Source: Armatimonadota bacterium
GTDB lineage: Bacteria > Armatimonadota > Armatimonadia > Armatimonadales > Capsulimonadaceae
Assembly (NCBI GenBank): GCA_025354405.1
Contig: JANXMY010000021.1
Location: 1 to 64,000 of the forward strand
DNA length: 64,000 nucleotides
Reading direction: 5' to 3'
Below are positions 7,402 through 35,893 of this stretch, piece by piece. A program made the translations under genes and the position numbers. How positions within the stretch are numbered: position 1 is the first letter of the stretch; each line of letters begins with the position of its first letter. The notes under the pieces were generated by a model, which was not told the DNA's origin, searched no databases, and saw only the letters and a program-made list of their open reading frames with translations.

Positions 7402-9520
7402 GTAACGTACTGTTTCCAGACTCTCCCGCGACGATGCGGTCAAAGTCGGCAAATTGCTGAAACAGTTCACGTAGGCATCCGAGCAGCGACAAACGGTTGT
7501 CGCGCCGATCCACATCCTCGCCCATCACCATCACCGCCTCGAAAAACGCATCGACCGCAGGCCGGATCGCCGCAAGCGTCTTAAGGGCAGCAGGATACTC
7601 ACGCCGTGCCATCTCCGCAGCAAAAGCCGATTCAGCAGCACTGTAGCGGTCCAGCAGTGCCTGTTCAGCAGCGTCATCAAAGAGGGCAGGATTGGGAGCC
7701 TGACATGGGACGACAATCCCCTCTTTTTGAGCGAAGCGCAGGATGTTCGATATACGTGTCGACGCCGCCTGCGCCTCCTTCGCCTCATTACCCCCAACCA
7801 AACCACCAAAGGCCAGGGCTCGAGCCTGTGTCTCCTGTATGCTATGCATCGGGGTCGATAGCACTGCCTCTCGGACATCGTAGCGCACGGATTTTTCTTC
7901 CAGGGCCGCATCCAGGCGCTGGGTCAGCAGAAGCATATAGCTCGCAAAAGCGTCTTGGTGTGTCGCCGTTTGCTTGATAGCCTGGTCAGAATACGCAGAC
8001 CATGCCGCTTCAAAAAGCGACCGCGGAGAGGGCAAAGAATCAGAGGTCGCCAGCAGCGCGACAAGGCCGGCGGCGGCGCGGCGCAGGGCATACGGATCAC
8101 TCGTGCCGGTCGGGGCAACCCCGATCCCCGCATATCCTACCAGGGTGTCCACACGGTCAGCGATTGCCAGGCGGCGACCAGCCTCCGTCCCCGGCAGAGG
8201 GTCTCCGGCTCCTTTAGGCTTGTAATGGCCAGAGATAGCCAGCGCAACTTCTTCGGGTTCCCCTTCTCGGCGGGCATACTCTTCGCCGACGATCCCCTGA
8301 AGTGCAGGCAGCTCTTTGACCATTTCACTGGCAAGGTCAGCTTTGCAAAGAAGACCAGCCCTCAGCAGCGCAATGATCTCGGGCGGCTCCAGAACATCTA
8401 ACAGTCCGCCATTTTCGAGTATCAGTGGCAGGCGCAGGGACTTCTGATAGACTGTCCCCAGCTTTTCCTGAAAAACGATAGTCTTCGTTCCGTTGATTTT
8501 ATCTGTGAGCGTTGTCTGGCTATCCAGTTCATGGAAGAAGCGTGCGTCATTGAAGCGGGCGGACAATACATTCTCAAAGCCAGCCCGTACCGTATCCAAA
8601 TACTCACCGCCACCGTTGCGAATGGCGACAAAGTTTGGCATCAAAGTGCCAGAGGAGTCTACCAGGGGGAAATAGCGCTGATGCTTTCGCATCGCCGTCA
8701 CCAGAACCGGCTGCGGCAGCGAGAGAAATTCCGAACTAAATGCGCCCAGAACCGCGGTGGGATATTCGGTCAAAAAAACGTTTTCATCCAGCAGTTCTTC
8801 CGCGATCTGCACCGTGCCGCCGATTTCGGCTGCCAGGGCTTTCGCCTGTGACACGATCATCTCACGCCGTTCTGACGGCTCAATAATGACGAATTTCTCC
8901 CGCATGATCTCTGAATACGCCAAAGGATTTGGCACATCAGCCTCTCCTGGGGACAAAAACCGATGCCCGCGTGTTGAGCGTCCCGCGGCGACGTGTTCGA
9001 CCGCGCACGAAATGATCTCTTCGTCAAGCAGTGCCACCAGCCAGCGAATCGGACGGGCAAAACGCAGCTTTCCTGCACCCCAGCGCATCGCCTTCGGGAA
9101 AGTCAGCTCCCGCACGATTTGAGGCAACAGCTCCCCGGCGATCTCGAGAGTAGTTCGACCTATCCGCTGAACCGTCGCCTGCACATAGCCGTCGACAATG
9201 CTAAGTGCATCGACGGAAATGCCATTCTTACGCGCGAACCCGAGTGCTGCCCCGGTTGGGCTGCCCTGCGGATCGAATGCAACTGCCGCACTTGGCCCCT
9301 TGAGCTGAAGCGTTTCATCCAACTGCCGATTAGCCAGACCGGTCGCGTAGATGACCAGGCGACGCGGCGTCCCAGTGACTTTGACTGTGCCGCTCTCAGC
9401 ACCCCATAGCTTTGCCGCCGTAAATTTCTCGCGAAAGCCCGTTTCGAGCTGCGCCATCGTCGGCGCGACAAATGTGGCGGGCAGCTCTTCCGTTCCGATT
9501 TCAAATAGCAGTTCCGGCAT
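7394..9520 (-). CDS. glyS: Glycyl-tRNA synthetase beta subunit
   Basis: MPELLFEIGTEELPATFV start; GlyS-typical sequence throughout. Confidence 0.95.
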   Translation of the reverse strand: MPELLFEIGTEELPATFVAPTMAQLETGFREKFTAAKLWGAESGTVKVTGTPRRLVIYATGLANRQLDETLQLKGPSAAVAFDPQGSPTGAALGFARKNGISVDALSIVDGYVQATVQRIGRTTLEIAGELLPQIVRELTFPKAMRWGAGKLRFARPIRWLVALLDEEIISCAVEHVAAGRSTRGHRFLSPGEADVPNPLAYSEIMREKFVIIEPSERREMIVSQAKALAAEIGGTVQIAEELLDENVFLTEYPTAVLGAFSSEFLSLPQPVLVTAMRKHQRYFPLVDSSGTLMPNFVAIRNGGGEYLDTVRAGFENVLSARFNDARFFHELDSQTTLTDKINGTKTIVFQEKLGTVYQKSLRLPLILENGGLLDVLEPPEIIALLRAGLLCKADLASEMVKELPALQGIVGEEYARREGEPEEVALAISGHYKPKGAGDPLPGTEAGRRLAIADRVDTLVGYAGIGVAPTGTSDPYALRRAAAGLVALLATSDSLPSPRSLFEAAWSAYSDQAIKQTATHQDAFASYMLLLTQRLDAALEEKSVRYDVREAVLSTPMHSIQETQARALAFGGLVGGNEAKEAQAASTRISNILRFAQKEGIVVPCQAPNPALFDDAAEQALLDRYSAAESAFAAEMARREYPAALKTLAAIRPAVDAFFEAVMVMGEDVDRRDNRLSLLGCLRELFQQFADFDRIVAGESGNSTLHE

Positions 9521-9709
9521 GGGGTCTCCTGGCAATCAACGAATTATTTTAGATTTTGAGCGGCAACCTCGCCGCAAGGAATGAGGGCAAATGGCTTTGT
9601 TGCATAAATAGTGCCATCCTGGAACCATGCCGTGAACGGCACCGCATGGTTTCCTATAGCATGGTTTCTTGTGGCATGGTCTCAAATTACGCAGCAACGC
9701 CAGTGTAAA

Positions 9710-11317
9710 CTACTCCCATTCAATTGTTGCAGGCGGCTTGCTGGTGATATCCAGGACGACGCGGTTGACGCCGGGGACTTCATTGACAATGCGGTTTGAG
9801 ATGCGGTCCAGGACTTCGTAAGGCAGGCGCGCCCAGTCGGCGGTCATGGCGTCCTCACTGGTGACGGCCCGTAGGACGATCGGATAGGCATACGTGCGCT
9901 GATCACCCATGACTCCAACACTTTTCGTGGGGATCAGCACGGCGAACGACTGCCACACTTTGCGGTAAAGCCCAGCCCGCTTGATTTCGTCAATGATTAT
10001 CCAGTCAGCGGAGCGCAGGAGGTCCAGGCGCTCTTTGTTGACCTCTCCGGTGATACGAATCGCCAGGCCGGGGCCGGGAAATGGCTGCCGCCAGACCATA
10101 TCCGTCGGAAGGCCCAGCTCTTCGGCAACTGCGCGGACTTCGTCTTTGAACAGGAAACGCAGCGGCTCGACCAGCTTGAAGTTCATGTCTTCAGGCAAGG
10201 CGACATTATGATGCGTCTTGATCTTGGCCGCTTTCCCCATGCCTGACTCAATGACATCCGGGTACAGCGTTCCCTGTGCCAGAAAAGTCGCATTTTTCAG
10301 CTTGCAGGATTCCTCTTCGAATACCCGTACAAACTCTTCGCCGATAATCGATCGTTTCTGCTCCGGGTCGATCACCCCGGCGAGACGGCGTAGGAAGCGC
10401 TCTTCGGCATCTACCGTAATCAAATTGATGTTGAACGCCGCCGCAAACTTGCGCTGAACATCCTCGGCTTCCCCTTTACGCAAGAGGCCATGGTTGACAA
10501 AGATGCAGACGAGCTGATCCCCAATCGCTTTATGCACCAGGGCTGCGACCGTGCAGCTGTCGATACCGCCCGAAAGGCCGCAGACGACTTGATGTTCGCC
10601 CACTTGCTCCCGAATCAGGCGAACCTGCTGGTCGATAAAACTTTCCATTTTCCAAAGGCCGCGAGTCCCGCAGACCTTTTCGACGAACCCGCGAATGACC
10701 TCCGTACCCCAGGGCGTATGGACGACTTCCGGGTGAAACTGAACGGCGTAAAAACGACGATTAGTGTCGATCATTGCCGCGACCGGGCAGCTTTCCGTGG
10801 AAGCAGAAACGGTGAAACCGGGAGGAGCCTCTTCAACCGTGTCACCGTGGCTCATCCAGCAGACCAGGTCCGTGTTTAAGCCCTCAAAGAGCACTGTAGG
10901 ATCTTGTACGGAAAGCTGGGTCTTGCCAAACTCTTTAAGCGTAGCAGCCGACACTTTGCCGCCAAGGTCATGCGCCATCGCCTGCATCCCGTAGCAGATG
11001 CCGAGAATCGGCAGGCCCAGATCGTAGATCGCTTTGTCAATCTGCGGCGCATCGTCATCATAGACTGACGACGGTCCACCGGACAGGATCAGACCGACCG
11101 CACCACGGGTTTTAATGACATCGAGTGAGGTGTCGAAGGGGAGGATTTCGCAGTACACATGGCACTCGCGAATACGGCGGGCAATCAGCTGGGTGTACTG
11201 CGCTCCGAAATCCAGCACCAGCACCAGCTCGGGCGGCGTGACACCTTCCCCGGCGGCATCGCCGGGCTTGTAATTGGTCAGCACGGGCTGATCTTGATGC
11301 TGCGGCGTCAGTGACAT
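9710..11317 (-). CDS. guaA: GMP synthase (glutamine-hydrolysing)
   Basis: 535 aa; [38 protein letters not shown]-terminal PPATIEWE. Confidence 0.97.
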
Positions 11318-34711: not shown

Positions 34712-35842
34712 TCAGGCATTCGGTCGCAGCGCATCCAGAAGCCGCTCTTCGCCGGTCGCGCGGTCGGTATACAGCCACGCAGTCCAGCCGTTCGAGGTAG
34801 GCAGGTTCAGAACAACAGCAGAGACTTTGTGGATTGAGCCGCGATGGCCGCCTGCCGTAATGGTTCCGTCGGCATGAATGCAGGCGAAGATGTTCGTGCC
34901 TTTGAGGCGCAGAGTGGTCCCGACCGGCAGGACGCCGCTTTCCACAAAGCTGACAAAGGGAATGCGTGGCTTGGGACCGCCGAGCAGAACACCACTTTCG
35001 TCGGGGCTTGTCAGGAGCGCGGGTGAGATGTTTGCGAGCCGTTTTTCGGCGACTTCGATGTAATCACCCTCACGGTCGATCGTGATGTAGTTTCGGCCCA
35101 GACGCTTTGCGACCGCCGCCGTCGTTCCCGTGCCGCAGAAGGGGTCGAGCACAAGATCGCCTGGGTTCGTAGTGGCAGCGATGACCCGGTGCATCAGTGC
35201 TTCTGGCTTCTGGGTCGTGTGAGCTTTCTTGCCGTTTCGCAGCTCACGCTCCCCGCCGGAGCAAATCGGGACATACCAGTCTGAGCGCATCTGCTTATCG
35301 TCGTTGCCTGCTTTGAGCTCCCGGTAGTGGAACGTGTACTTCTTCTGATCGGCCGATTTCTTCGCCCAGAGCAGCGTTTCGTGGGCATTACAAAAGCGAG
35401 TGCCCTTCATCTGAGGGGTTGGGTTCGCTTTGACCCAGCAGATGTCGTTAAGCATCCAGTAGCCGACATCCATCATGACAGAGCCGACCCGATAAATGTT
35501 GTGGTAGCTGCCAATGACCCAGAGAGTGCCGTTGTCTTTGAGCACTCGGCGGGCGGCGGTCAGCCACGCACGGGTAAAAGAGTCATACTCCGCGAAGGAG
35601 TTAAATTTGTCCCAGGGATCGGTGACGGCATCGACTTTGGTCATATTCGGTCGCCAGAGTTCTCCGCCAAGCTGCATATTGTATGGCGGGTCGGCGAAAA
35701 CCAGGTCAGCGCACTTGGCCGGCAGGGAATTCATTACCGACACACAGTCGCCGCGCAGGATCTGGTTGACGGGGACATCCGGGTGAATCTTTTTGACAGC
35801 GGGACGCCGCACGGTCGTTTTTTGGGGAAGCTGGGTGGTCAT
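34712..35842 (-). CDS. CcrM-like solitary DNA adenine methyltransferase (predicted GANTC)
   Basis: LVFADPPYNMQLGGELWRPNMTKVDAVTDPWDKF, FTRAWLTAARRVLKDNGTLWVIGSYHNIYRVG, KGTRFCNAHETLLWAKKS, HTTQKPEAL, DPFCGTGTTAAVAKRLGRNYI; CcrM-like C-terminal domain. ATG at 35842 (GTG at 35848 alternative). Confidence 0.9.
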   Translation of the reverse strand: MTTQLPQKTTVRRPAVKKIHPDVPVNQILRGDCVSVMNSLPAKCADLVFADPPYNMQLGGELWRPNMTKVDAVTDPWDKFNSFAEYDSFTRAWLTAARRVLKDNGTLWVIGSYHNIYRVGSVMMDVGYWMLNDICWVKANPTPQMKGTRFCNAHETLLWAKKSADQKKYTFHYRELKAGNDDKQMRSDWYVPICSGGERELRNGKKAHTTQKPEALMHRVIAATTNPGDLVLDPFCGTGTTAAVAKRLGRNYITIDREGDYIEVAEKRLANISPALLTSPDESGVLLGGPKPRIPFVSFVESGVLPVGTTLRLKGTNIFACIHADGTITAGGHRGSIHKVSAVVLNLPTSNGWTAWLYTDRATGEERLLDALRPNA

Positions 35843-35851
35843 AGGCACGTT

Positions 35852-35893
35852 ATTGTACCACGGCGGACTCAGGAAAACAATGGATAGGGACTC
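35852..35893 (-). promoter_or_regulatory. Predicted promoter of CcrM-like gene containing GANTC sites
   Basis: -35 TTGTTT (35880-35875), 17-bp spacer, -10 TACAAT (35857-35852); GANTC at 35866-35870 and 35889-35893. Confidence 0.6.

Follow-up and report, generated by a model that had tools for sequence, protein, structure and literature searches.

A CcrM-type orphan adenine methyltransferase of Armatimonadota and a possible link of GANTC methylation to replication

CcrM is taught as a cell-cycle device of Alphaproteobacteria, coupled to GcrA and CtrA. In this CcrM/GcrA module the expression of the methylase is limited by the cell cycle and the enzyme is degraded by Lon. The Caulobacter ccrM promoter carries two GANTC sites (PMC10073500), the Caulobacter origin carries several (PMC3973325), and the repABC origins are rich in GANTC (PMC6090056). 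Another orphan adenine methylase, Dam of Escherichia coli, works with SeqA, and its target is densest around the replication origin and at dnaA (PMC10073500). Helicobacter and some Chloroflexi were noted earlier to have CcrM homologues with the C-terminal domain (PMC3973325). In the Chloroflexi metagenome-assembled genomes BS3/BD1 from Lake Biwa 92.8-98.7% of GANTC sites were methylated, with no role proposed (PMC6329791). A literature search, covering few subscription papers, found nothing linking CcrM with Armatimonadetes.

The window analysed here, a stretch of 64,000 nucleotides, is part of contig C229 (74,830 bp) in an Armatimonadota genome of 3.6 Mb that is 96% complete (G000). We denote the family of this genome f1; L114 is a locus from the same genus. 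Among named relatives, homologues of the window methylase were 94% and 74% identical in records named 'Armatimonadetes bacterium' and 61% identical in 'Chthonomonadaceae bacterium', in agreement with the phylum that the first-pass annotation had read from the gene content. The same annotation had suggested that the gene may lie outside the classical range of CcrM. This is right insofar as the host is not alphaproteobacterial, but the range had already included Helicobacter and some Chloroflexi. The features of the gene are as follows.

34712..35842, minus strand: ccrM-like gene for an orphan adenine methyltransferase; the ATG at 35842 gives 376 aa
35848, minus strand: alternative GTG start of the same reading frame, giving 34712..35848 and 378 aa
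35042..35707, minus strand: N6_N4_Mtase catalytic domain with DPPY and loops 2B, 45 and 6E (Pfam residues 48-269; comparison with structure 6PBD)
34724..34975, minus strand: RAMA / SAND-like C-terminal DNA-binding domain, with GSIHK and NGWTAW kept (Pfam residues 292-375)

The ATG lies two codons inside the frame opened by GTG and is the likelier start because it fits the conserved promoter better. Pfam recovered the catalytic domain with an E-value of 1.2e-61 and the RAMA domain, over residues 292-375, with 1.3e-8 and 35.1 bits (cut-off 35.2). The top NCBIfam model was that of CcrM, NF050803, at 509 bits, under the equivalog cut-off of 830 bits. This cut-off is narrow, since even the Caulobacter vibrioides control fails it; it was passed by no armatimonad and by none of the sampled Chloroflexota. 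The PADLOC models of type II and orphan methyltransferases matched at about 1e-145, while the closest solved structure was Caulobacter CcrM, 6PBD (E-value 3.4e-131 over 335 residues).

In the comparison with 6PBD, the catalytic residues and the target-strand contacts D31, Y34, R44, P45, W57, Y93, H94, W109, K118, P123, K126, R129, F130, H134, R179, K187, T191 and K193 were all retained, as were S315, I316, H317, N330, G331 and W332 of the C-terminal domain. The roles of these residues are described in PMC6787082; for example, R44 reads G1 and R129 reads T4. The features of a beta-class methylase (DPPY and the contacts of loop-2B, loop-45 and loop-6E) were present with three exceptions, M122T, N124Q and F125M, by which loop-45 reads TPQMK versus MPNFK in Caulobacter CcrM, where strand separation of the DNA is stabilised by F125 and N124 (PMC13092597). 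The Q-M pair is common to most f1 relatives and to some sequences of families f7 and f8, so we take it for an inherited variant rather than damage. Judged by sequence, the gene is confirmed as a full-length CcrM-type adenine methylase with catalytic and C-terminal DNA-binding domains intact, as the first reading had claimed from its motifs, all of which are there. Activity of the enzyme on GANTC is highly likely, and the more so because activity was measured in Chloroflexi.

Comparison with the L114 orthologue gave a dN of 0.038 and a dS of 0.98, and the gene is under strong purifying selection. Pfam identifies its neighbours as a serine beta-lactamase-like hydrolase and a DUF3857/transglutaminase protein, with no nuclease adjacent, just as first described. 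Synteny, proposed as a further check, held within the genus only; elsewhere in f1 the position of the gene shifts.

Full-length CcrM homologues were found by the CcrM model search in about 70 of the 291 Armatimonadota genomes, across many families. Five of the six other f1 genomes had one, and the lone exception is 69% complete. The same search of the 291 genomes found no homologue in the sister family f2 or in family f15. Among the sampled Chloroflexota genomes, 28 of 151 carried a homologue.

A genome-wide search of G000, at its 96% completeness, found no nuclease of the HinfI family, and none of the HpyAIV family was found there or elsewhere in f1. The window methylase is thus, as far as sequence searches tell, an orphan, and the suspicion that a cognate nuclease might sit just outside the window is answered as well. 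Intact HinfI nuclease was present in the phylum in one case only, genome G237 (308.9 bits), beside a divergent methylase, which stands apart in the tree on a very long branch (2.86) and has other residues in place of Y93, H94, F130 and S315; this HinfI-type restriction-modification pair occupies 7976-9909 of locus L184. In G177 a HinfI-like fragment, decayed and interrupted by a stop, adjoins the full-length methylase (L150, G177:C26:9975-10157). G158 has HpyAIV-like fragments, and one of these lies next to a full-length methylase where a contig ends (L160, G158:C287:2-172). These fragments are possible stages on the way from a restriction pair to an orphan. Nucleases of HpyAIV type scored above the cut-off in four genomes of the phylum; that of G205, the one examined, adjoins a short methylase without the C-terminal domain. 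A scan of 139 proteins flanking the ccrM homologues gave few nucleases, and the commonest neighbour was a housekeeping protein, peptidyl-tRNA hydrolase. Separately, contig C173 of the window's own genome (L002, 2-784) holds another methylase, truncated where the contig stops, whose C-terminal part is unlike CcrM.

The distribution of GANTC had been proposed as a check, and it carries an imprint of the kind expected from the enzyme. In the window's own genome the motif occurs at 0.74 of expectation (z -12.8; maximal-order Markov model, 324 kb) and is the most depleted of eight motifs of the same composition. The ratio was 0.79 in the same-family genome G021 and 0.70 in alphaproteobacterial loci, versus 1.08 and 1.00 in the CcrM-lacking armatimonads G008 and G079. 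Across the phylum the difference between CcrM-carrying loci and CcrM-lacking genomes had a p-value of 1.5e-5 by locus and 0.0014 by family, and no other motif of the same composition differed; these tests carry no species-tree correction and the CcrM-lacking set is small, while the family-level test removes most of the pseudo-replication. Since the depletion is specific and tied to possession of ccrM, GANTC is very probably methylated in this genome and in the CcrM-carrying armatimonads. With a crude gene finder, no intergenic enrichment of GANTC was found in the window's own genome (density ratio 0.86), while the same procedure gave 1.93 in Alphaproteobacteria and 1.35 in G021. In G021 (L261-L280), whose genome is complete in one contig of 7,645,051 bp, another motif, TGNCA, was at 0.61 of expectation (z -15.7), which hints at a further methylase or restriction specificity there.

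The region upstream of ccrM contains three more features.

35889..35893, minus strand: GANTC site 1 (GAGTC), upstream of the -35-like hexamer, conserved in L114
35866..35870, minus strand: GANTC site 2 (GAGTC), within the promoter spacer, conserved in L114
35852..35880, minus strand: putative ccrM promoter read from the sequence, with TTGTTT, a 17-nt spacer and the extended -10 element TGGTACAAT

The extended -10 element spans 35860-35852. As it ends 10 nt ahead of the ATG at 35842, the transcript is probably leaderless. An automatic consensus scan did not call this promoter, its -35 element being weak. The 57 nt ahead of the ATG were identical to L114 at 55 positions, while farther upstream the identity fell to 13 of 33 and then to 7 of 35. 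No neighbouring gene in the comparison reached the identity of the ccrM promoter, which is conserved to this degree although the dS of the gene is about 1. The number of GANTC sites in this promoter is not significant on its own, as 11% of the genes in the genome carry two or more in the 200 bp upstream. On the other hand, four sites are packed into about 45 bp of the ccrM promoter of L114, and five into about 90 bp of that of L117. Many ccrM promoters of family f8 carry phased arrays of about six GANTC at a 10-bp pitch. A four-site array of this type was present in only 7 of the 291 genomes, six of them CcrM-carrying members of f8 with the array at the ccrM promoter. In Alphaproteobacteria the mean number of GANTC upstream of ccrM was 4.2, compared to 0.7 for other genes. 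The 21 Chloroflexota sequences examined had no such cluster at their ccrM promoters (mean 0.8 site).

The motif is also concentrated beside dnaA. In the window's own genome, contig C89 holds four of the 14 distinct tight GANTC triplet clusters led by GACTC within some 2.5 kb around dnaA, as known from cluster positions and matched strings, and the rest are scattered across 3.6 Mb. G021 has 21 overlapping GANTC triplets in 400 bp beside dnaA. Dense clusters beside dnaA were also seen in G023 and G024, so that at least three other members of f1 have them, while G020 was weaker, with two triplets on the dnaA contig. In three f8 genomes an array of four GANTC-N5 units lies outside the ccrM promoter, and both arrays that were read are in the dnaA-recF intergenic region: 783-1408 of L306 (G041) with 22 GANTC in 625 bp, and 794-1544 of L307 (G046) with 25 GANTC in 750 bp. 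Both regions hold DnaA boxes of the TGTTGATAA type, and these clusters adjacent to dnaA may mark the replication origin. The same two regions contain repeated palindromes, ACTATGGGGATAGT / ACTATCCCCATAGT, which may be the binding sites of some origin protein.

Such clusters are not general. The two-gap pattern search found none beside dnaA in two control genomes without CcrM, G008 and G003, and also none in G030, G053, G045, G183 and G253, which carry CcrM and belong neither to f1 nor to the f8 subgroup with arrays. No cluster beside dnaA was seen in three f7 loci (L180, L181 and L182 of G029, G028 and G027), although only about 3 kb separate ccrM and dnaA there. The f15 genomes, which are without CcrM, are GANTC-rich and were left out of these controls. 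Two alphaproteobacterial genomes searched in this way had scattered triplets only. The cluster beside dnaA therefore marks f1 and a part of f8, not every CcrM carrier.

We rather favour the reading that the window gene is a functional orphan CcrM-type GANTC N6-adenine methyltransferase working as an epigenetic timer tied to replication. GANTC sites would be hemimethylated once the fork has passed, and the cluster beside dnaA (a putative origin) together with the two ccrM promoter sites would report that state. The methylase would then remethylate them, resetting the cluster and the promoter, and through the promoter sites ccrM expression would come to depend on its own product. Methylation state would in this way affect initiation or ccrM transcription. 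Origin coupling together with autoregulation of ccrM seems to us a reasonable, if far from certain, proposition, and the coupling is made plausible by the precedents of Dam/SeqA at oriC, the repABC origins and the Caulobacter origin.

GcrA (PF07750) was absent from the window's own genome and from 12 of 13 other Armatimonadota genomes tested, with a weak match below the cut-off in G021, while the same search found it in two CcrM-carrying Alphaproteobacteria and in Caulobacter. Since GcrA is absent, the protein that reads the GANTC mark here is not GcrA. The idea of a cell-cycle role, raised in the first-pass annotation, is thus carried over in part: there are signs of a link to replication, in the GANTC clusters beside dnaA, and to the gene's own promoter, but the alphaproteobacterial circuit is not there, given the absence of GcrA and of intergenic enrichment. 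Such a role we infer for the window methylase. Several observations count against the favoured reading. Caulobacter without CcrM has a wild-type-like DNA-content profile in minimal medium (PMC3973325); to this may be added the loop-45 changes, the lack of intergenic enrichment, the unremarkable number of GANTC sites in the window's ccrM promoter and the several CcrM-carrying relatives without a cluster beside dnaA.

The gene could instead be one half of a HinfI-type restriction-modification system, retained after the other half was lost, with the GANTC depletion as the scar of past restriction and the methylase persisting through inertia or by protecting from incoming or neighbouring GANTC nucleases. 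A true HinfI pair does exist in the phylum, the remnants beside the methylases of G177 and G158 fit such a course, and restriction also leads to depletion of a motif. We nevertheless hold this explanation to be unlikely, if worth keeping in view: the gene is under strong purifying selection and has a conserved promoter footprint, five of six other f1 genomes keep it while the nucleases are absent, and a local concentration of GANTC beside dnaA is the opposite of avoidance. That concentration might in turn be due to binding sites (iterons, or boxes of DnaA or another protein, e.g., TGTGACTC) in which GACTC is coincidental, with a real methylase unconnected to replication. The f1 cluster is indeed largely a repeated (T)GTGACTC, as a fixed repeat would be. 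In the clusters of G021 and f8, however, the middle base takes all four letters (GAATC, GACTC, GAGTC, GATTC), and this variation argues that GANTC itself is kept rather than a fixed repeat. The clusters occur in two separate methylase-carrying families and not beside dnaA of the CcrM-lacking G008 and G003, and GANTC clusters mark ccrM promoters too. Coincidence of this sort is therefore quite improbable in our estimate, more so than the retained half.

Recent horizontal transfer from an alphaproteobacterium, one of the two possibilities first raised, has in its favour an identity of about 55% to alphaproteobacterial CcrM. In a tree of 120 rows, however, the alphaproteobacterial CcrMs form one clade (SH-aLRT 100) and the window methylase falls inside a clade of 25 rows from Armatimonadota only (support 95), apart from the HinfI-paired methylase of G237 on its long branch; this tree does not separate the deep branches of Armatimonadota, Chloroflexota and Alphaproteobacteria. 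Forcing the window sequence and L114 together with Alphaproteobacteria was rejected by the AU test (delta lnL 89.9, p-AU 0.007). The G+C content of the gene, 0.585, is close to that of the window, 0.571. The tree and the AU test refute the transfer, to which we give hardly any weight, and indicate that ccrM was inherited within Armatimonadota and is not a recent gift. An origin from a phage or plasmid was likewise dropped: the phages searched had no close full-length homologue and the plasmids had few, the plasmid matches being mostly of the unrelated YhdJ type, with one good full-length match on a 1.9-Mb Azospirillum replicon.

Set against the described systems, the replication-linked reading gives a mixed picture. 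The window enzyme is like Caulobacter CcrM in domain layout, order of DPPY, target-strand contacts, C-terminal domain and orphan status, and its genome shares the GANTC depletion, the two promoter sites and, at a putative origin, the GANTC sites known from the Caulobacter origin. It differs in the lack of GcrA and of intergenic enrichment, in its separate clade and in loop-45 (T-Q-M versus M-N-F); the dense cluster beside dnaA also differs from the scattered triplets of the two alphaproteobacterial genomes. The Chloroflexi methylases are likewise orphan CcrM-like enzymes outside Alphaproteobacteria, in another phylum and with ccrM promoters that lack the GANTC cluster. M.HinfI has the same C-terminal extension and the target motif predicted for the window enzyme, while the HinfI system differs in its adjacent nuclease (NF045831). 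With Dam the likeness is the concentration of the target at dnaA and the origin, here suggested by the clusters, while the enzyme family and the motif are different. The best reading is a logic like that of Dam with an enzyme like CcrM, that is, an origin-linked and probably autoregulated GANTC system.

The enzyme is of the known CcrM type, and the circuit has its target concentrated beside dnaA and is without the alphaproteobacterial reader. Inheritance of the same enzyme type in a distant phylum without GcrA means that the enzyme is separable from the alphaproteobacterial circuit, and it suggests that GANTC methylation may have been coupled to replication earlier, or more than once. More tentatively, and with slightly more doubt than belief, we propose that Armatimonadota have a GcrA-independent, origin-centred GANTC timer, in which CcrM, the arrays beside dnaA and the GANTC-bearing ccrM promoters would form a feedback loop through a hemimethylation-sensing protein. 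It would have arisen or been rewired in at least two families, as a third arrangement besides Dam/SeqA and CcrM/GcrA. Since a single phylum contains HinfI pairs, their decayed remnants and orphan genes, it also makes the origin of orphan methylases traceable.

Some further occurrences of the gene were recorded. G174 has two full-length ccrM copies (L122 and L144), and in G258 a second, truncated copy adjoins the full-length one (L176, 9100-9714). The predicted viral contig IMGVR_UViG_3300001335_000237 carries a full-length CcrM-like gene (L194, 2335-3420) that is 50% identical and groups with a sequence from a Campylobacterota metagenome-assembled genome.
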